Of a stretch of 46,197 bases of DNA, positions 25,313 to 38,868 are shown in pieces (position 1 is the first letter of the stretch; every line of letters begins with the position of its first letter). Under the pieces are notes generated by a model, which worked only from the letters and a program-made list of their open reading frames with translations, made no database searches and was not told the DNA's origin. The DNA comes from Bacillus sp. 522_BSPC. Its GTDB lineage: Bacteria; Bacillota; Bacilli; Bacillales; Cytobacillaceae. The position numbers and the translations under genes were made by a program. Location: positions 1 through 46,197 of the forward strand of contig NZ_JVDT01000011.1 in the NCBI RefSeq assembly GCF_001076885.1, in the 5' to 3' direction.

Positions 25313-25801
25313 CTATTCGCCATATAAAACCAGTTTATGCTGCTTTAAACTTCTTTGACAATCTATCACTCGTTGGTTTTTACTTCCTTTATAAAGGAGA
25401 CTTAAATCTCTTTGTTCGATTAGAAACCGGCCATCAACTAAAACATCTAAATATATACTTAATTCCGCAAACTCTTCCTTAAATTCTGTCACTAGCTCTT
25501 CCCAGAGAAATCCTGTATAGCACCAAATATTTTTATTATTTTCTTTGCATTTTTTAGCTAATCGTATAAGTTCTCTTATTTGTAGCATTGGCTCTCCACC
25601 ACTAAAGGTAATATCATTTAATGGATTTCGATTCAATTGACTCATCATTTCGTCAATTGACATCTCGATTCCTCCATCTATTCGCCAGCTCTCTGGATTA
25701 TGACACCCTCTACAATAATGAGTACACCCCGCAAAAAAAATAGTAGTTCTTAATCCTGGACCATCGACAACACTATCTTCAACTATTGATAATACTCTCA
25801 A
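25313..25801 (-). CDS. nrdG: Anaerobic ribonucleotide reductase activating protein
   Basis: NrdG is the radical-SAM activase that generates the glycyl radical on NrdD. The 162-residue sequence begins RVLSIVEDSVVDGPGLRTTIFF and carries the [4Fe-4S] motif CTHYCRGC (Cys27, Cys31, Cys34) followed by HNPESW. DITFSGGEPMLQ is the SAM-binding GGE motif. Its start is TTG, overlapping the nrdD stop codon as TTGA; the only other upstream codons in frame soon hit a stop. Because the overlap is with the 71-nt third exon of nrdD, coupled translation should depend on removal of intron 2. Confidence 0.92.
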   Translation of the reverse strand: MRVLSIVEDSVVDGPGLRTTIFFAGCTHYCRGCHNPESWRIDGGIEMSIDEMMSQLNRNPLNDITFSGGEPMLQIRELIRLAKKCKENNKNIWCYTGFLWEELVTEFKEEFAELSIYLDVLVDGRFLIEQRDLSLLYKGSKNQRVIDCQRSLKQHKLVLYGE

Positions 25802-25868
25802 CGATGTTTAACCCTTTCCCGCTCTTCTGCACGCTTAGCTGTATTCCAACGATCAAGTGATCCAACAA
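25798..25868 (-). CDS. nrdD: nrdD exon 3 (C-terminus of NrdD)
   Basis: This 71-nt exon encodes the end of NrdD, reading (L)VGSLDRWNTAKRAEERERVKHR then TGA. Joined to exon 2 it recreates the family C-terminal sequence RITGYLVGSLDRWN. It has no start of its own and is easy to miss. The stop overlaps the TTG of nrdG. The 5' boundary follows the intron end CTATCGCTAT type sequence (…CGCTAT at 25869). Confidence 0.88.
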
Positions 25869-25954
25869 ATAGCGATAGGTAAGTCTTTGGTTCCTCCTGT
25901 TGTCAGGTTTTCCTCCGTAAACAATCATTTCAGATTGAACTTTTCCCCCGCTCC

Positions 25955-25988
25955 ACACCGTACGTGAACCTTTCAGCTCATACGGCGT
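25955..25988 (-). other. Domain V of group II intron 2
   Basis: This 34-nt hairpin with a CTGAAAGG terminal region is the catalytic domain V. It is identical at every base to 29996-30029 in intron 1, while much of the rest of the two introns differs. Confidence 0.8.
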
Positions 25989-26079
25989 TCCATCGTTTTC
26001 ACATTCTATTTGTTTTAAACATTACTTACACACTTCGAAGAAGATATATTTCACTGTATATTCGTTTCTTTACCCAACG

Positions 26080-28017
26080 CTAAATTTCTTCTACAATACT
26101 TTCTACTTTGGCTATTAATCTTAATTTGTTCAGTTTTCTTAGCTGTTTCTCATTTAATCCCAATATCTTTAGATATTTATTAAGTGTCTCTTTTTTTGTT
26201 GCGTGAATTAGTTTATGCACTGTTTCTGAGACAATTAATAAATTCGAGTAGTTGTCACTGCCTCCATATTGTTTCGGAACCTTATGATGACAATGTATAT
26301 CATGCGCTTCTAACAATTCATTTGTCACTGCACATTTTCCATATTGTGCAGCATACAATGATATTCTATTATCTGCGTATTCTATAGACTGACCCTTTAC
26401 TGGATTTCGCATTAACCATCTTAGTACGCCCGTATCAAACTTTAAATTTTGATGTTTTAATGCTCTTCCTTCTTTTGTATATCTATTAATCTTTCGAGTT
26501 CTTGACATTGGGATTTTATTTGAAACAAAACCTATCGGAAGAATATAGTGATTTCTCAGATATCTTAATCTTCTAGATTTACCATACCATTTTAGAACAC
26601 TTGACTTGTATATACCGATATCTTTCATATTACCTTTTGGTTCTTTGCTTAAGCCTATTCTTGTTAGCCTATTCTTAAGCATATGACCTGTTCTCCATTC
26701 AATATTACGGCAATCTACTGATATATGTGTCGCTATACGATAATAATTATGAACACCCATTACTAATGCATTATATCTGCTTATTGCTTGATATTGTTTT
26801 TCTTTTTCTTGTGTGTTCTCAATTTTCTCGATTGCTTCTCTTATCTGTATTATGATTCTTTCCTTTGCCTTATCGCACATATAGGATCTAACAACCCATT
26901 TATTCTTTTTTGGGCTTAAGTGGACTTTTAGCTTATAACCAAGGAACTCTGAATATTTCTTACGAAGATTGACTATTTTCGATTTTTCTTTACATATGTC
27001 AAGTTTCAATCTTTCTTCTAGCCATTTCTTTGTTCCTTCAAAGGTTCTTATTGCTTCATTATAGCTTTTGCAAAAGATTTTAAAATCATCTGCATATCTT
27101 ACTATAAATATTGGTTTTAACTTTGAGTCTTTTTTAAGCTTCGAATATTTTGCTGAGTTATCAACTGAACCATTTTTCCTTATATAAGGTTTGTATGGAC
27201 TACGCATAGGAAAGCTTTCCCATTGTGATTCAATCCATTTATCTAGTTCATTTAATACTACATTTGCTAACAAAGGTGATAATATTCCACCTTGTGATGT
27301 TCCTTTTGTCGGATATATTACTTTTCCGTTTTCAAGTACCACAGGTGCTTTTAGCATTGCTTTAATTATTGATAACAACTTCTTATCTCTGACTCCTAGT
27401 GTCCAAAGTTGTTTTATTAATTTACTATGCCAAACATTATCAAAGAATCCTTTGATGTCCACATCTACCACGTAGTGCATGTTTGAATTTTGCATTAATT
27501 GCATAACTCTTGCTATTGCATTTTCAGCAGAACGGTCAGGTCTGAAACCATAGGAGTGATAATAAAATTTAGCTTCAACTATTGGTTCTATTACTTGCTT
27601 TATACATTGCTGTACAATGCGGTCAATAATGGTTGGTATTCCTAAAAGTCTTTTCTTACCATCCCTTTTTGGTATTTCTACCCTTCTTACTGTATTTGGT
27701 CGGTAATTACTGAACTTTCTATTGATTAATTTTAAGTAGTCTTCTTCATTTAGCTTTGATAAGTCATCAATTGTTCTACCATCTATTCCTGGAGTATTGC
27801 TTCCGTCATTCTTCTTTATATTTCTATATGCCAACATTATGTTCTCTGGTGTTGTTATCAACTCAATTAAACTGTTGAAATTTTTTCCTTTTGTGCTATC
27901 TTCATATAATCTATCAAATGTTGTTTGCATATCGTAATATTCCGAGTGACGTATTTGACTTATCTTCGGTAACTTCTTTTTCAGTGTTTTATTCTGCTTC
28001 GAAGTCAACACAGGCAT
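26080..28017 (-). CDS. ltrA: Group II intron-encoded reverse transcriptase-maturase-HNH protein (intron 2)
   Basis: This 645-residue protein promotes splicing and mobility of intron 2. An RT domain (about 50-370) shows NTPGIDGRTIDDL, GKKRLLGIPTIIDRIVQQ, the YGFRPDRSAENA block, GTSQGGILSPLLANVVLNELD and the catalytic FIVRYADDFKIF. A maturase (X) region follows, and a C-terminal HNH endonuclease (about 565-615) with CAVTN, HDIHCHHKVPKQYGGSDNYSNLLIV. No inactivating change is seen, so the intron may be mobile. ATG 28017 abuts AAAGGAGGG; GTG at 28011, six bases further, may be the true start. Related to, but clearly distinct from, the protein in intron 1. Confidence 0.93.
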   Translation of the reverse strand: MPVLTSKQNKTLKKKLPKISQIRHSEYYDMQTTFDRLYEDSTKGKNFNSLIELITTPENIMLAYRNIKKNDGSNTPGIDGRTIDDLSKLNEEDYLKLINRKFSNYRPNTVRRVEIPKRDGKKRLLGIPTIIDRIVQQCIKQVIEPIVEAKFYYHSYGFRPDRSAENAIARVMQLMQNSNMHYVVDVDIKGFFDNVWHSKLIKQLWTLGVRDKKLLSIIKAMLKAPVVLENGKVIYPTKGTSQGGILSPLLANVVLNELDKWIESQWESFPMRSPYKPYIRKNGSVDNSAKYSKLKKDSKLKPIFIVRYADDFKIFCKSYNEAIRTFEGTKKWLEERLKLDICKEKSKIVNLRKKYSEFLGYKLKVHLSPKKNKWVVRSYMCDKAKERIIIQIREAIEKIENTQEKEKQYQAISRYNALVMGVHNYYRIATHISVDCRNIEWRTGHMLKNRLTRIGLSKEPKGNMKDIGIYKSSVLKWYGKSRRLRYLRNHYILPIGFVSNKIPMSRTRKINRYTKEGRALKHQNLKFDTGVLRWLMRNPVKGQSIEYADNRISLYAAQYGKCAVTNELLEAHDIHCHHKVPKQYGGSDNYSNLLIVSETVHKLIHATKKETLNKYLKILGLNEKQLRKLNKLRLIAKVESIVEEI

Positions 28018-28748
28018 CCCTCCTTTATTGGATGGATTTTCTTTGTCATACTCGAAGCTGTGTTTATAATGTTTTCAATTTAAAATGTAAATACGACTTG
28101 AGGCTATCCCTCCATGGATTATTATCTCCACTTCAACGGTACTATGCCTCTGCTCTCACCAAGATTAAAGATAGTTATATCCTTATGAATTTCCTATCTA
28201 ACGCTTCACTAGCCTACAACTGCCTCAACGTTCTTGGCTTTCCACGTTCCAACAATCCTATCATTTAAGTTCCTTAGGTGCTTCCTTTGAGCCTGATTGC
28301 TTGACATCGCCTTTAACGATGTAAGGATTTTCGTGGTTACCGTGCTACTCATCCTCACAATCTCCAATTACCATGGAGCCATACATTTCTGTATGGTATC
28401 ACTAAGACCCTTTCATTCGGAAGTTCGTCAGTACCTTTCTTATGAAGCTTGTACATTCTCACCATAGAACTTGACACCCGACCTATCATTTACAACCTCC
28501 ACCTCTGGAGATATTTCCTCATCAAACTTATATTGTTTATGTTAGGGTAAACTTCAGTCGACTTCACCGAGCTTCTGACCAATCATTTGTTGTACGATTC
28601 TTAGCCAGTCGGAGTATCAGTGGGGACATTTCAGGGCGTTACTCCATCATTCTATCCCTTAGATTGTCAGTTCTCCAAAGTTTGTCTCATTACTTAATGT
28701 AATAATTCAACTTCGTGCTTAACCTTTTCAGTTAAGAACGTGTCACAC

Positions 28749-29946
28749 GATATCCAGTAATTCTTCGTATCCGTTCAATCTTTGTCTCTTCCTTTTCTCC
28801 ACACTTAGGACATTCGTTATCAATAATCCCTTTATAGCCACAGCTTATGCAACGATCCACTGGATGATTAATACTTCCATAGCCAATCCCTGATTCTTTC
28901 ATTGTCCGGACGATTTTCTCCATCGCATCCATATTTTTACTAGCATCACCATCTAGTTCGACATATGTTATATGACCCGCATTCGTTAAAGAATGAAATG
29001 GTGCTTCCCGTTTAATTTTTTCATAAATAGATATTGGATAATAGACGGGGATATGAAAACTATTAGTAAAATAATCTCTATCCGTCACTCCTCTAATAAT
29101 TCCAAACTTCTTTCTAGTTGCCCGTAATGCTTTTCCCGCAAAGGATTCCGCAGGTGTTGCAAGCAGTGAATAGTTCAGCTGATATTTTTCCATTGCTTGA
29201 TCCGCTTTTTGGCGCATAAACTGAACAATGCGCAAACCAAGCTCATACGCCTTTTCGCTTTCTCCATGGTGAAAACCAAGCAAAGAAACTAAACACTCTG
29301 CTAAACCAACAAACCCAATCGATAATGTTCCTTGCTTTAAAAGTTCATCTAGTTGAGCATCCATCTGTAGCTCTTCTCCACCTTGCCAAACTCCTTGTCC
29401 ATATAAAAATTTAAAATTTGCTACTTTTTTCTTTCCTTGGTAATGATATCTTTCTAGCAGTTGTTCAATAACCAAGTCTATCGTTTCATTCAATTTATAA
29501 AAAAACGATTCTATTGTATTGGACTCTAAGCCAAGCAAAGGGAGATTAATACTTGTGAAAGATAAATTCCCTCTTCCAATTGTTTGTTCCCTTCCATGGA
29601 TATTTCCCATTACTCTTGTTCGGCATCCCATTGTTGCAACTTCTGAATGAGGAGTACCGTCATAATACGCTAAATTAAATGGCGCATCGATAAAAACAAA
29701 GTTAGGAAATAATCTTTTACTTGTTGTCTCAATTGCTAAACGAAATAAATCATAGTTTGGATCTTCTTTTTGATAATTTATTCCATCCTTCACTTTAAAT
29801 ACGATGATAGGAAAAATTGCCGTTTCGCCAGCACCAAGACCTGCTTGTGTTGCGAGTAGCAAGTTCTTTGTTAACATTCTTCCTTCCCTCGATAGATCTG
29901 TCCCTAAATTTACTGAAACAAATGGAGTCTGCCCCCCACCTCTTGA
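28749..29946 (-). CDS. nrdD: nrdD exon 2 (central and catalytic part of NrdD)
   Basis: This 1,198-nt exon encodes residues 193-591 plus one base of codon 592 of the anaerobic ribonucleoside-triphosphate reductase. It begins SRGGGQTPFVSVNLGTDLS, continuing the NSMH at the end of exon 1. It includes LLLATQAGLGAGETAIFP, and near the end the zinc-binding four-cysteine motif CISCGYKGIIDNECPKCG. It stops just after RRITGY, where Gly590 is the predicted glycyl-radical residue. An in-frame ATG at 29877 could be mistaken for the start of a short independent gene; it is internal. Confidence 0.9.
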
Positions 29947-29995
29947 ATAGTGATAGGTAACATTTTGAAGTTATCACCATGTTTTCCCCCACTCT

Positions 29996-30029
29996 ACACC
30001 GTACGTGAACCTTTCAGCTCATACGGCGT
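29996..30029 (-). other. Domain V of group II intron 1
   Basis: This 34-nt catalytic hairpin is identical to that of intron 2. It lies 49 bp before the 3' splice site, leaving room for domain VI. Confidence 0.8.
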
Positions 30030-30058
30030 GCCATCGAAATAGTAAAATCAAAAATTTA

Positions 30059-31918
30059 CTAAAAGGTAATGTTGTAATTTCCCACTAGCTTTCGGAGTTC
30101 GTTAATCTTTTTCATTTCCTCCTCCTGAAGGCTATATCTCTTAATGAGACGCTTCTGTGTCCTGTCATTATTAGTGTGTACTAGCAAGTGAATATTGGTA
30201 AGGAGATATACTAGGTTACTGTATTCATCCGTTCCACCTTTTTGTCTTGGTATTTTATGATGACATTCCATATCATTGATTGTTAGTTCTAATCCTGTAA
30301 CAAAACATCTACCGTGTTGAGCAGAATATAGCGAAATTCGGTTATCATTATATTCAATACTTCGATAGACTATAGGATTTTCCATAATATGTTTAAGGAC
30401 GAATTGGTTAATATTGATTAATTTATCATGAACAAGCTTTCTACCTTCATCTGTATAATTGGATATTCTTCTATTAAATAAGGTTGGTCGCCTGAACTTG
30501 ATACCTGAGATTGGATATAATGCAATTTTATGCATAAAGTATTGTTTTCGATGAGCATATTGACCATAGTGCTTTTTGTATGTTTCAGAAAAATGCCCTC
30601 GATGTGAAACACATTTTTTCCATCTCTGTTTTAATCTGTATAACGTATCGTTCTCAATGTCACTGAAGTCCCTGTTAACGTTGGTTGCAATACTGTAGTA
30701 GTTGTGCACCCCAATAATAAGTGAGTTTAGCTTATACACTTCTTTTGGAGTGTTGCTATTTTCTATTTCGTCTATTTTCTTACGTATCTCTGATTTAATT
30801 CGAATTTTCTCTTCGTCAACCATATGTGATTTGATAACGTAGCGTTTTTTCTTCCTTTGTACTTTAATCTTAATGCCAAGGAACTCTGTATAGTTTTTCT
30901 TAAGATTTACAATACTTGATTTCCTTTCGTTAACTTCTAAGTTTAACCTTTCCTTAAGCCAGTTGATAGTTGCAATATAAAGCTTTTTGGCATTTTCATA
31001 GCTATTAGTTAGGATTCGGAAGTCATCTGCATATCGGACGAAAAAGCACTGTTTTAATTTGGTTCCGTTTCTAAGTGCATTCAATTTATTTGAATTATTT
31101 TTGTAAGGTAAATTTTTAAAGTTCCCCTTACCATTTCCTCCACAGCGCTGTTTTGCAGGAAATTCAATCCATTGTGAAGCAATCCACCAGTCAAGCTCAT
31201 TTAGTACAATGTTTGACAGAAGTGGGGAGAGGATTCCTCCCTGAGGTACACCTTTTGATGATTTTCCCTCATTTTTCATTTCTGCTTTTAACATTTTACT
31301 AATTATTGAGATTAACTTTTTGTCTTGAATGCCTAAGCTCCAAATTTGTTTTAGAAGTTTTCCGTGATTAACATTATCGAAAAATCCTTTAATATCGACA
31401 TCTACAGAGTATAAACATTTGGAGGAGTGAACATAGCTGTAAAATTTTGCAATTGCGTGTTGAGTACTCCTATTTGGTCTGAAACCATAGCTTTCATTAA
31501 AGAATTTAGCTTCACAGATAGGTTCCAAGACTTGTTTTATACATTGTTGGATAAGCCTGTCTTCAATTGTCGGAATTCCTAAAGGACGTAAATCCCCATT
31601 TGGTTTAGGAATCAATTTCCTTTTTACTGTTTGTGGTTGATAGTTGTTAAGCCTTCTTCTAACGTAAGAGATGACGTCGTTAACATTTTCCACACCAATA
31701 TCTAAGATAGTTCGTCTGTTCGTACCACTAGTTTTACTCCCTCTATTTTTCTTAATGTTTCTGTATGCTAGTTTGATATTTTCCTCGCTAATAATAATTT
31801 CATAGAGGTTTTTGAACACATTGCCTTCATTAGATTCGAGATATAGCTGGTCATAGACTTCCTGAATATTGTAATATTCATTGTACCGTAGACTTTTCTT
31901 CTTTTTAGCCATAGTCAT
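30059..31918 (-). CDS. ltrA: Group II intron-encoded reverse transcriptase-maturase-HNH protein (intron 1)
   Basis: This 619-residue protein has an RT domain (about 35-340) with PNGDLRPLGIPTIEDRLIQQ, YGFRPNRSTQHA, GVPQGGILSPLLSNIVLNELD and catalytic FFVRYADDFRIL. A maturase region follows, and a C-terminal HNH domain (about 540-590) with CFVTGLELTINDMECHHKIPRQKGGTDEYSNL. All key residues are present. It should splice intron 1 from the nrdD transcript and could support retrohoming. ATG 31918 or the ATG two codons later (31912) may be the start. It is the same subfamily as the intron 2 protein but too diverged for a recent duplication. Confidence 0.93.
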   Translation of the reverse strand: MTMAKKKKSLRYNEYYNIQEVYDQLYLESNEGNVFKNLYEIIISEENIKLAYRNIKKNRGSKTSGTNRRTILDIGVENVNDVISYVRRRLNNYQPQTVKRKLIPKPNGDLRPLGIPTIEDRLIQQCIKQVLEPICEAKFFNESYGFRPNRSTQHAIAKFYSYVHSSKCLYSVDVDIKGFFDNVNHGKLLKQIWSLGIQDKKLISIISKMLKAEMKNEGKSSKGVPQGGILSPLLSNIVLNELDWWIASQWIEFPAKQRCGGNGKGNFKNLPYKNNSNKLNALRNGTKLKQCFFVRYADDFRILTNSYENAKKLYIATINWLKERLNLEVNERKSSIVNLKKNYTEFLGIKIKVQRKKKRYVIKSHMVDEEKIRIKSEIRKKIDEIENSNTPKEVYKLNSLIIGVHNYYSIATNVNRDFSDIENDTLYRLKQRWKKCVSHRGHFSETYKKHYGQYAHRKQYFMHKIALYPISGIKFRRPTLFNRRISNYTDEGRKLVHDKLININQFVLKHIMENPIVYRSIEYNDNRISLYSAQHGRCFVTGLELTINDMECHHKIPRQKGGTDEYSNLVYLLTNIHLLVHTNNDRTQKRLIKRYSLQEEEMKKINELRKLVGNYNITF

Positions 31919-32611
31919 AAGTCGGTGTTACCACCTCTCTTAGTCATACTCGAACCTTATGATTATTACAAAAGAACCATGATTTTACTATTTCGACTAG
32001 AGGCTATCCCTCCACCATGTTTCCATGGCTTCAAAGGTACTGTGCCTCCGCTCTCACTCGGATTTAATACCTTATAACAAATTGCTTTTGAACCGTATTT
32101 ACGCCTCATTGGTGGTTAATCCTCTGCGTTCCGAGCTTTCCCCGTTCCGATATTCTTATCCTTTCATATACCCTTAGGTTCCATCTATGAGCCTGCTTGA
32201 ACGTCATCACCTTTAATGATGAAGGGTGTTTCATAATGCACCATTTTACTAAACCCCTCAAGCACCTAACAATGTAGGCATATGCATTTCTACATATCAC
32301 ACTATAGACTCTTTAGGTCAATGGTTCGTCGGTGGTTTGCCAACCACATTCTAACCATAGGTATTTTATGGACTCCCGGCATATGTGCTACGCTATTCAC
32401 CTCTGAATAGGTTTCGAATCAAAAAGATTTTCGGTTGCTCTCTGCCGACTTCACCGAGCTTCGTACCATCAAATGTTAACCCATTATCAGGCACGTCGGA
32501 GTATCAGAGGAAGCATTTCAAGGCGTTACCCTATCATTCTACTTCTCAGAATATCAGTTCTAACAATAAAAAAATTGTTGTACCAGCTTTTCACTAGTAA
32601 ACGGGTCACAC

Positions 32612-33187
32612 ATGCATCGAGTTACAATTATGTATAAATGCCTCACAAGCTTGGTAAGTTTCTCTTTCTGTCCATTTCCAAGCACTACGTTCCAACTCTT
32701 CACTGTCATCTATTAAGTCACTTAAACGAAGCTTATTTTGGCAGTATGTTTTATATACATATGGTGCTAGATCATAGTCTAACATTGGGATAGATTGTCC
32801 CCCGTGTTGCTGATTTTGGTTAGCTTGTAAAATGATGGATGTAAGCGCCATTGCACTCATAATAGATTTTGGCTCTCTCATAAATCCATGACCAGTATTA
32901 AACCCATTTTTTAAGAGTTTAGCTAATGGGATTTGACAGCAAGTTGTCGTACCAGAAGAAAAAAAATCAAGATCATGAATATGAATATATCCTTCTTGAT
33001 GTGCCTCTCTCACCTCTTTCTTTAACAAATGCTCCATTGTATAATACTTGGAAGCAGTAGCAGCAAATTGCATCATATGACTCATCGGTGACATCCCATC
33101 AATATTTGCATTTTCTTGGATAAAGTCTTGATTATTGTTTTTCATTATTTCATCAAACTCACTTACTAATTGGACATTCTTGCCCAT
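32612..33187 (-). CDS. nrdD: nrdD exon 1 (N-terminus of NrdD)
   Basis: This exon encodes residues 1-192 of the anaerobic ribonucleotide reductase, which makes dNTPs from NTPs without oxygen. The start is fixed: GGAG is eight bases upstream and an in-frame TAG directly precedes the ATG. The protein thus begins MGKNVQLVSEFDEIM and has no N-terminal ATP-cone. GYIHIHDLDFF (67-77) and TTCCQIPLAKLL (with conserved Cys83/Cys84) are family hallmarks. The exon ends FIHNCNSMH exactly in the conserved HNxNTMHSR motif, where intron 1 sits. Full spliced length is 614 residues. Confidence 0.92.
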
Positions 33188-36389: not shown

Positions 36390-36549
36390 CTTAATCAGTC
36401 CTTTCCTTCTATATATAGAATCTTTTCCCTTCTTTCCCACATGTTAAACCATTTTTCTACACTTTAAACAATCCTTTGTTTTTGATATGATAGATATTAT
36501 TTCACAACAGATATGGATAGATGTATTAAAAATAGATTCGAGGTTTCCT

Positions 36550-38868
36550 ATGTTAACAGCTTTAAATTATGATAGATTCATTTCATTAAATACAATTGAT
36601 AGACAAGAATTGCAGAAAGTTTATGAAGCTGGCAAAAATGGGCTTCTTGCCTGCACTGTATGTGGAGAGGCGGTAAAGCTTTATTTAGGAATAAAGAGTG
36701 CTCCCTATTTTTATCATTATTCTTCTAAACAACCATGTGCGACAGAAGACTTATCCAATGTTCAGGAAGAACAAGCTGCTACCATTGATATAGACGATGA
36801 AAAAACAAATGGATTTCGATTACCAAAGAGCAGAAGTATTTTAAAAATTGTTACCGAAAGCCCAACTTTTAAACCGCCTATGACTATTAAAGCAACGATT
36901 CATACATCTGAATTAGCGAATAGTCTACCAGTTACTTATCCAAAGGAATCTTATTTAAATATGCTCGCGCAAAACGGTTATTCAGTTGATGCTACCCAAA
37001 GTAAAGCTGTTACAATCGACGAGGGACCGATTCTTATTCTAGCAGGAGCAGGAAGTGGTAAGACGCGAGTATTAACAATGCGAGCCGCTTTTCTAATTCA
37101 CGAGAAAAAAGTTGATCCGTCGACAATTATGCTCGTTACTTTCACCAATAAAGCCGCAAACGAAATGAAGGAACGATTATTACACTACCCAATGATGAAC
37201 AAAAGTGTAGTACAAAAGATTGTTTCTGGAACTTTCCATAGTATTCTCTATCAAATATTGATTTTTCATGAACGAGAAAAATGGCAACGTAATAAACTAC
37301 TAAGCAGTAATTGGCAAAGAGAGCTTTTATTAAAGGAAATAGCAAGGGAAGAGCAAATGGATGAGAAAGACTTCCCATTTGATGCAGCCCTTCAATTAAT
37401 AAGCGCCTGGAAAAACAGCATGCTATCCCCCAATAATGTGGAGCCTGATAATGACTGGGAACAAAAAGTTGTACAGTTATATACCGGCTATGAGACGAAA
37501 AAACAACAACGAAATCTATATGATTTTGATGATATGCTTCTTGGCGGCTATCGTTTTTTTGTGGATAACCCAGCTATTTTAGCAACCTATCAAAAACGCT
37601 TTACTCATTTCTTATTAGATGAATTTCAAGACATAAATAAAGTGCAATATGAGTGGATAAAGCTAATGGCAGGTTCAGCTAAATCCATTTATGCAGTGGG
37701 TGATGATGATCAATCTATCTATTCTTTTCGAGGCAGTGATCCAAAATACCTGTTAGATTTTGAAAAAGATTATCCAAATTCACAGACAATTATTCTTGAT
37801 TATAATTACCGCTCTTCACAAGAAATTGTGTCTGCAGCAAAATCAACCATTAGCAAAAATACAAAGAGACGTGCTAAAAAAATGATTACAGGATATTCAG
37901 GAAAGCCCCCAATTGGGTTCTATCCTTATGACGAAGAAGAAGAAGCGACGATGATTTTGACAGATATTCAGGAAAAGATAAAATTAGGTTATGAGCCAAA
38001 GGATTTTGCAATTCTCTTTCGTACAAACACGAATAGTCGTGCCATGTTTGAGCGATTAGCATCCTCTAGTTTACCATTTAGATTGGAACAGGATACTGGT
38101 TCCTTCTACCAAAGGTTTATCGTAAAAAGCATGTTGTCCTATTTAAAACTCATTGATGATCCAGATAACCAACAAGCTGTTGGTGATATCCTGCCTACTC
38201 TCTTTTTGAAAAAATCCGTTTTGCAGGATATTAAAGCAACGAGTATTTTAGAAGATTGCAGCTTTTTAGATTGCCTCCATTTTATTAAAACAGGGTTTGC
38301 CTTTCAAGAAAGCAAGCTAAAAAAAATTCCAAATACATTAAAGGGATTAATAAATCGTTCTCCGCTTGATGCCATTAATTATATAGAAAAAGAATTAGGC
38401 TTTCAGGAATTTATTAAAAAACGAGGAAATGAAGGGAATCAATGGGATAAAGGGTCTGACGATATTCGCGATTTAAAGGTCGTTGCACGAAAATTTAATT
38501 CCATTAAAGAATTTGTGCAATATACGGATCATATGATGGCGATGAATGAAGAATTACGCAAGCAATATAAAAATGAATCCAACGTAATTACCTTAAGTAC
38601 TATTCATCGTGCAAAAGGATTAGAGTATAAAACCGTATATATACTCGGTGCGGTTGATGGGTCTATCCCTCATGACTTTGCATTAGAGTCATCCCGAAAT
38701 AATAATATTTTCCCCCTTGAAGAAGAGCGTCGGCTTCTTTATGTTGCGATGACAAGGGCACAAAAAGAACTATTTCTGTCCATTCCTATGTATCTAAGAG
38801 GAAAAAAAGCTAAGGAATCACGTTTTTTATTGCCCTTGTCGATGTCTCCTTTTGTTCAATTAGATTAA
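36550..38868 (+). CDS. yjcD: UvrD/PcrA-family ATP-dependent DNA helicase, YjcD type
   Basis: This ~772-residue superfamily 1A helicase has motif I LAGAGSGKTRVLT (about 164-176), motif Ia TFTNKAANEMKER, motif II FLLDEFQDINKVQ, motif III AVGDDDQSIYSFRGSD, motif IV NYRSSQEIV and motif VI LLYVAMTRAQKELF. The first ~60 residues are unusual for PcrA: LLACTVCGEAVKLYLGIKSAPYFYHYS resembles the CoiA/competence-type cysteine-rich region, as in Bacillus YjcD. GAGG precedes ATG 36550 by six bases; the upstream ATG at 36487 has no RBS. Biological role is unknown; DNA repair is the family default. Confidence 0.9.
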   Translation: MLTALNYDRFISLNTIDRQELQKVYEAGKNGLLACTVCGEAVKLYLGIKSAPYFYHYSSKQPCATEDLSNVQEEQAATIDIDDEKTNGFRLPKSRSILKIVTESPTFKPPMTIKATIHTSELANSLPVTYPKESYLNMLAQNGYSVDATQSKAVTIDEGPILILAGAGSGKTRVLTMRAAFLIHEKKVDPSTIMLVTFTNKAANEMKERLLHYPMMNKSVVQKIVSGTFHSILYQILIFHEREKWQRNKLLSSNWQRELLLKEIAREEQMDEKDFPFDAALQLISAWKNSMLSPNNVEPDNDWEQKVVQLYTGYETKKQQRNLYDFDDMLLGGYRFFVDNPAILATYQKRFTHFLLDEFQDINKVQYEWIKLMAGSAKSIYAVGDDDQSIYSFRGSDPKYLLDFEKDYPNSQTIILDYNYRSSQEIVSAAKSTISKNTKRRAKKMITGYSGKPPIGFYPYDEEEEATMILTDIQEKIKLGYEPKDFAILFRTNTNSRAMFERLASSSLPFRLEQDTGSFYQRFIVKSMLSYLKLIDDPDNQQAVGDILPTLFLKKSVLQDIKATSILEDCSFLDCLHFIKTGFAFQESKLKKIPNTLKGLINRSPLDAINYIEKELGFQEFIKKRGNEGNQWDKGSDDIRDLKVVARKFNSIKEFVQYTDHMMAMNEELRKQYKNESNVITLSTIHRAKGLEYKTVYILGAVDGSIPHDFALESSRNNNIFPLEEERRLLYVAMTRAQKELFLSIPMYLRGKKAKESRFLLPLSMSPFVQLD

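Follow-up and report, generated by a model that had tools for sequence, protein, structure and literature searches.

The window, a 46,197-nucleotide (nt) stretch of contig NZ_JVDT01000011.1 from Bacillus sp. 522_BSPC, carries on its minus strand (33187-25798) a gene for the anaerobic, class III ribonucleotide reductase (RNR), nrdD, which consists of three exons and two complete group II introns (Table 1). Upon re-splicing, the exon lengths, junction coordinates, frame and rejoined motifs NSMH/SRGGGQ and GY/LVGSLDRWN (slash, intron position) were as claimed in an initial annotation of this DNA. The joined exons (576 + 1198 + 71 = 1845 nt) encode 614 amino acids (aa) plus stop in one frame; unspliced, the first reading frame comprises 193 aa and stops after a single intron 1 codon. 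The spliced protein matches NCBIfam PRK14704 over its full length (1014 bits; cut-off 736) as well as the Pfam families NRDD (656 bits) and Gly_radical (44.3 bits), and can be aligned to PDB entries 8p23 and 1h78. Thus, once spliced, the product is a full-length NrdD with its glycyl-radical motif.

Anatomy of the nrdD introns

Both introns interrupt conserved motifs. Intron 1 lies between H192 and S193, in NSMH/SRGGGQ, and intron 2 one base into the codon following ITGY, in ITGY/LVG, adjoining what we take to be the glycyl-radical glycine. The gene is single-copy in this genome and present there in these three pieces.

Table 1. Features of the nrdD locus and same-class introns elsewhere in the genome (G000, this genome; C, contigs; L, loci)
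Feature	Position	Strand	Remarks
nrdD exon 1	32612..33187	-	576 nt, ends ...NSMH, phase 0
nrdD exon 2	28749..29946	-	1198 nt, SRGGGQ...RRITGY, phase 1 at end
nrdD exon 3	25798..25868	-	71 nt, LVGSLDRWN... to stop
Group II intron 1	29947..32611	-	2665 nt, GTGTG...CTAT
Group II intron 2	25869..28748	-	2880 nt, GTGTG...CTAT
Intron 1 ribozyme core, domains D1-D4	32365..32562	-	RF02004, 182.1 bits
Intron 2 ribozyme core, domains D1-D4	28467..28675	-	RF02004, 172.0 bits
Intron 1 domains DV-DVI	29947..30031	-	RF00029, 56.4 bits
Intron 2 domains DV-DVI	25869..25990	-	RF00029, 56.7 bits
Intron 1 branch-point A, bulged	29954	-	predicted from fold
Intron 2 branch-point A, bulged	25876	-	predicted from fold
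Intron 1 exon-binding site (EBS) 1, GUGCAU	32236..32241	-	with exon ATGCAT: 6/6 pairs (5 Watson-Crick, 1 wobble)
Intron 2 EBS1, GGUAAC	28336..28341	-	with exon GATATC: 4 Watson-Crick, 1 wobble, 1 mismatch
Intron 2 EBS2, AGUGAU	28398..28403	-	with exon ATTACT (-13 to -8): 6 pairs, one wobble
IEP1, reverse transcriptase/maturase/HNH	30059..31918	-	619 aa; open reading frame, profile and motif searches
IEP2, reverse transcriptase/maturase/HNH-type	26080..28017	-	645 aa from this ATG; open reading frame, profile and motif searches
nrdG activase gene	25313..25801	-	TTG start overlapping nrdD stop (TTGA)
pcrA	G000 C222		L182
topB	G000 C134		L183
B12-dependent RNR gene	G000 C86		L174
recJ	G000 C273		L185
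DHH-like gene	G000 C176		L184
polC intron	G000 C57, L189:2174-3308		1135 nt, without protein gene

The group II boundary rule, GUGYG at the 5' end and AY at the 3' end, is followed in both introns (GTGTG...AT). The ends given in the initial annotation (GTGTG at 32611 and 28748, CTAT at 29947 and 25869) are borne out by the sequence, and the 3' ends also by Rfam, independently of that reading, as the RF00029 match ends exactly on base 29947 or 25869. The covariance-model search that the annotation had put forward as a check, run at the gathering threshold (cut-offs 34.5 bits for RF02004 and 40 bits for RF00029), found both families in both introns. The agreement of these results lies far outside what chance would give. 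DV and DVI fold as expected in each case, with an A bulging out at 8 nt from the 3' end; the fold of the long DVI of intron 2 is not clearly better than that of shuffled sequence (z -1.22). An alignment of 27 related introns over their 5' parts placed the EBS1 loops, with pairing read by eye and then scripted. The EBS2 of intron 2 corresponds in position to the one recognized by eye in relatives within this alignment; an earlier candidate, the loop after the adjoining stem, was dropped once the other exons in the alignment had been read.

Relative to its nearest relative (94% identical protein), nrdD has a ratio of nonsynonymous to synonymous substitution rates (dN/dS) of 0.088, and dN to the outgroup is 0.070 for the intron-bearing gene vs 0.073 for its intronless sister. 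These values indicate that nrdD is still under purifying selection, without relaxation, in a test that has little power if the insertions are very recent. At the overlap with nrdG (25798-25801), the start codon of that gene is TTG, while ATG with the same overlap is present in the three congeners read; a substitution that is silent in nrdD may thus have weakened the nrdG start.

Intron-encoded proteins and history of the insertions

The proteins encoded by introns 1 and 2 (intron-encoded proteins IEP1 and IEP2) both exceed the cut-off of the NCBIfam group II reverse transcriptase (RT)/maturase model TIGR04416 (327 and 349 bits; cut-off 300). A motif search located YADD and HNH-type C-terminal residues in both, and the Pfam HNH model matches IEP1 barely above its cut-off (21.7 vs 21.4). 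Relatives of IEP1 with solved structures include LtrA, the protein of the Lactococcus intron Ll.LtrB (E 2.9e-39). As machinery, the introns are ordinary.

IEP1 and IEP2 are 47% identical. In a protein tree of 31 rows, a branch with support 99/99 separates IEP2 from 22 rows that include IEP1, and IEP1 clusters with the proteins of the pcrA and addA introns (support 94/92, just under the tool's star). The two introns also differ in their guides, so that the earlier description of nrdD as bearing a pair of complete group II introns, related yet distinct, is supported.

Close relatives of either protein are scarce. At E<=1e-205, IEP1 retrieved only itself among 398 genomes of the class, and its best full-length relative among 193 genomes of the family is 52% identical; the closest stretch seen (G855 C29:26959-28044, a relative's genome) shares 60% identity with IEP1 residues 5-371 within a 681-aa frame. 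A pattern scan for close relatives only, covering one genome for each of 84,980 species and excluding this genome, placed the best relatives of IEP2 (54% identical over the length) in introns of gut clostridia. In several clostridial species, relatives of intron 2 occupy a YGNDN/ site in a gene that by eye resembles one of a mobile element (L071-L087); in the rows read for this site, targets vary at third codon positions and EBS1 is kept. Viral contigs hold four relatives of IEP1 and one of IEP2, and tblastn gave no NrdD match on these contigs. Likewise, tblastn of NrdD against 155 loci holding relatives of the introns matched five, all of them the window's own.

The insertion sites are empty in relatives. 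Elsewhere in the genus, nrdD is unbroken in 12 of 12 sampled genomes. NrdD searches covered 61 genomes of relatives, 398 of the class and 398 of the phylum, with 22, 155 and 220 matched under the limits used, the own genome included. Base-level reading of 81 loci, two of them the window's own, left 79 other NrdD-match loci, a few of them distant paralogues; an empty site could be read in 77 of these for site 1 and in 75 for site 2. Three clostridial loci considered as bearing site 2 introns because their alignments end near residue 592 (L143, L147, L151) read on as protein, and a further candidate (L112) turned out to be a frame jump at residues 48-49. In L152, L153 and L158 (G452, G498, G570), the aligned nrdD frame ends before the glycyl-radical motif. 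Because the two proteins are only 47% identical and fall on different branches, and the sites are empty in relatives, the introns were gained separately, and the simplest timing for both gains is after this lineage parted from its nearest sampled relative.

Same-class introns elsewhere in the genome and codon position of guide pairs

The two nrdD insertions are part of a genome-wide pattern. In this draft genome (G000, 291 contigs; other G numbers denote relatives), an inventory based on intron-protein homology and Rfam yields a minimum of eight RF02004-class introns. All eight found lie in protein genes, and each joined junction gives a continuous frame. The hosts, mostly genes of DNA metabolism, are nrdD (twice), nrdJ, pcrA, topB, recJ, polC and a DHH-like gene. 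The host protein of nrdJ, the B12-dependent RNR, matches NCBIfam PRK08115 with 1693 bits. The pcrA intron is inserted at DEYQD/T (PcrA profile, 1183 bits), presumably the Walker B motif, and the topB intron at SDHHA/I of topoisomerase III (PRK07726, 761 bits; topB, 670 bits). The recJ intron, whose protein gene is broken up over different frames, lies at GDYDA/DGVTST (second exon alone, recJ 515 bits; cut-off 397), and the polC intron at PDIDL/NFSGEY (second exon alone, PRK00448 938 bits; cut-off 873). The DHH-like protein reaches 25.2 bits with Pfam DHH, below the cut-off of 28.1, and no family above cut-off. In G000, pcrA, topB, recJ and polC are each present only as the split gene, and distant paralogues of pcrA and topB show 33-34% identity. 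A UvrD/PcrA-like helicase gene in the window (36487-38868; 34% identical to PcrA) represents a paralogue found in 13 of 13 genus genomes searched. G000 also holds two further group II introns, of family RF02001 (contigs C119 and C135).

The polC intron of G000 lacks a protein gene. Six of 13 genus genomes, G000 included, have an intron at this polC codon, as does one genome from a different genus in the family. Of the seven introns read (L189 and L293-L298), two are full-length and one, of 2676 nt, is truncated in its frame (longest inner frame 387 aa); the remaining four, of 757, 773, 1135 and 1421 nt, are without protein gene.

Comparison with the relative G001 suggests that such introns have moved. 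The pcrA introns of the two genomes are 97.5% identical vs 91.4/89.1% for the exons, and the nrdJ introns 96.5% vs 89.4/88.5%. In addition, G001 contains a second, 100% identical copy of the nrdJ intron (C1:1954583-1956394, L064), preceded by bases that resemble the nrdJ target. Location inside a gene is not obligatory for the RF02004 class, because many same-class introns of relatives are intergenic: among 59 distinct junctions, a large part has no 60-aa frame across the junction. The genome-wide set is more unusual than the nrdD pair itself. Split RNR large-subunit genes were also seen in four congeners (G004, G005, G006 and G010; L176-L179); the gene at L176 is split by a group I intron (75.6 bits), and L179 has a sub-threshold group I match.

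We then asked where imperfect guide pairs fall relative to codons, using 19 hand-picked in-gene introns (eight from G000 and 11 from relatives, namely congeners and the 59-junction set; three at one polC site) and counting repeated sites such as the clostridial YGNDN once. Taken together, the six pairs per intron between EBS1 and intron-binding site (IBS) 1 contain 27 non-Watson-Crick pairs, 20 of which face third codon positions (p 5e-5; 100,000 random frame shifts per intron), in a test whose rows are related, whose register was picked by best score and which was designed post hoc, after the first cases had been seen. Among the eight introns of G000 alone, 11 of 13 such pairs do so (p 7.6e-4). 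G is the EBS1 base in 21/38 instances facing a third position vs 14/76 elsewhere. In 25 intergenic introns, positions -2 and -5 account for nine of the 24 imperfect pairs, about the third expected by chance. Two rows were kept in the count although the polC intron of G010 pairs poorly (4/6) and the loop of the G937 row (YRYGNMFY) is doubtful. As the best reading, which we do not claim to be proven, the introns would be under selection to withstand synonymous drift within conserved protein motifs, as if their guides were tuned to those motifs. Guide-target wobble pairs have been counted before, with no tie to codon position in the parts of the source consulted (PMC3522654); absence of the idea from our literature search is no proof of novelty.

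Proposed mechanism, alternatives and significance

We propose that nrdD very probably harbours two mobile group II introns, each site-specific and acquired independently of the other. Both would be transcribed together with nrdD and each excised by its ribozyme and its own RT/maturase, with branching from the bulged A 8 nt before the 3' end. The 5' splice site would be recognized through pairing of EBS1, and in intron 2 also EBS2, with the upstream exon, and the two splicing events would give back the 614-aa NrdD. The same guide would steer the excised intron RNA into empty nrdD alleles, where RT and HNH-type nuclease would complete the insertion. Both introns would have entered the lineage after its split from the nearest sampled relative, as part of the group of eight or more same-class introns in protein genes, and their guides seem tolerant of synonymous changes, since imperfect pairs lie mostly at third codon positions. 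The anatomy, the frame, the empty sites of relatives, the separate ancestry and the genome-wide set are observed directly, and splicing, mobility and guide tuning are inferred from them; splicing competence is better supported because introns of the same class occupy the only pcrA and polC found and because selection on nrdD appears not to be relaxed. PcrA depletion is lethal in B. subtilis, according to the portion of PMC8865920 consulted.

Several observations weigh against this proposal. The completeness claimed for both introns stands as regards cores, DV-DVI, boundaries and EBS1, but no convincing EBS2 was found for intron 1 in the alignment of related introns, and the IBS1-EBS1 pairing of intron 2 contains an A-A mismatch at -5. 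Similarly, the annotation of RT-maturase-HNH genes holds for both proteins with respect to TIGR04416 and, by motif, HNH, but the Pfam HNH model gives no match on IEP2 at E<=0.001. A second intron-bearing nrdD was not found among the matches listed, with one genome per species searched, which leaves homing into nrdD putative. Ribozyme constraint could be an alternative source of the higher identity of introns relative to exons, and 17 of the 19 introns in the codon analysis are in phase 1, which partly confounds codon-position with fixed-position effects.

We consider it unlikely that the introns splice poorly and that nrdD is dying or silenced, with deoxynucleoside triphosphates supplied by other RNRs. 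Such a scenario could draw on another RNR large-subunit gene in a single open frame (C287, 755 aa, cobalamin riboswitch upstream), on the weak IBS1-EBS1 pairing of intron 2 and on the low exon-ligation efficiency of some introns, cited in the consulted part of PMC3522654, where it is among the reasons discussed for the rarity of such introns in housekeeping genes. However, the nrdD exons are intact, with the low dN/dS and no excess of dN over the intronless sister, and same-class introns are tolerated in the only pcrA and polC found. This latter presence in pcrA and polC equally argues against a regulatory switch, in which conditional splicing of nrdD, for example at low oxygen, would set NrdD/NrdG output. 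While nrdD is needed only without oxygen and nrdG may feel splicing through its overlap with the nrdD stop, 12 of 12 sampled congeners manage without introns and no regulatory element was identified by Rfam, the one search made; we regard such a switch as very improbable.

Two further explanations deserve hardly any credence. Derivation of one nrdD intron from the other by local retrotransposition within the gene would fit their shared class and host, but duplication is contradicted by the differing guides and by the protein tree, in which the two 47% identical proteins are parted by the 99/99 branch. An assembly chimera might be suspected in a draft of 291 contigs; its chances are just as slight in view of two exact in-frame junctions and of sibling introns of other genes in relatives assembled into 2-3 contigs (G001, G009).

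The nrdD introns have partial precedents. Three group II introns, along with inteins, reportedly interrupt a single bacterial RNR gene (Liu et al. 2003, by its title), presumably in Trichodesmium and in another RNR class; the likeness is that one bacterial RNR gene holds more than one group II intron, the difference that inteins are there too. The nrdD gene of phage T4 likewise hosts a self-splicing mobile intron (sunY, I-TevII), in our alignment of the genes 20 nt upstream of the intron 1 site, but this is a group I ribozyme with a GIY-YIG endonuclease and DNA-based homing. Inteins of replication and repair enzymes presumably share the preference for conserved catalytic motifs of DNA-metabolism proteins, yet act by protein rather than RNA splicing. 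Such elements have been suggested to occupy conserved parts of host proteins (PMC2814812). As a separate observation, nrdD of Eggerthella phage EL753P1 (OP172808.1; L168) has an intein-like in-frame insert of ~330 aa after MGC, with the glycyl-radical tail TGYLTGSADRW ~560 nt downstream of the end of the main-frame match. A group II intron also interrupts a housekeeping DNA gene of a Bacillus relative, in this case recA of Geobacillus kaustophilus (Chee and Takami 2005, as cited in the portions seen of PMC3522654 and PMC4424553). In the excerpts consulted, bacterial group II introns are said to interrupt housekeeping genes 'seldom' or 'virtually never' (PMC6003770, PMC3522654). Searches of open-licence literature for group II introns with nrdD, anaerobic RNR or polC listed no title or abstract beginning that reports the two-intron nrdD arrangement. 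The nrdD pair has precedents, and interest is raised by the gene-concentrated genome-wide set, the protein-less polC intron and the codon pattern.

A joint reading of these features is possible, though we hold it to be rather doubtful: a guild of introns behaving like inteins, with wobble-tuned guides. Each lineage may home to one catalytic motif of a conserved gene, mostly of DNA metabolism (nrdD twice, nrdJ, pcrA, topB, recJ and polC, plus addA in relatives), and wobbling guide bases at third positions may keep synonymous host changes from masking the target. In G000 and three further species the polC intron no longer encodes a protein of its own and so possibly borrows maturases, in which case chromosome replication may rely on those of other introns, possibly the ones in nrdD or pcrA.

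With its eight in-gene introns, which include those of the only pcrA and polC found and two in nrdD, this Bacillus relative allows a direct test of whether group II introns can splice efficiently in bacteria. Moreover, the codon-position pattern is a concrete prediction of how introns keep finding conserved genes. Finally, the protein-less polC intron is a natural case in which to test whether maturases are shared, as has often been proposed for the path toward spliceosomal introns.

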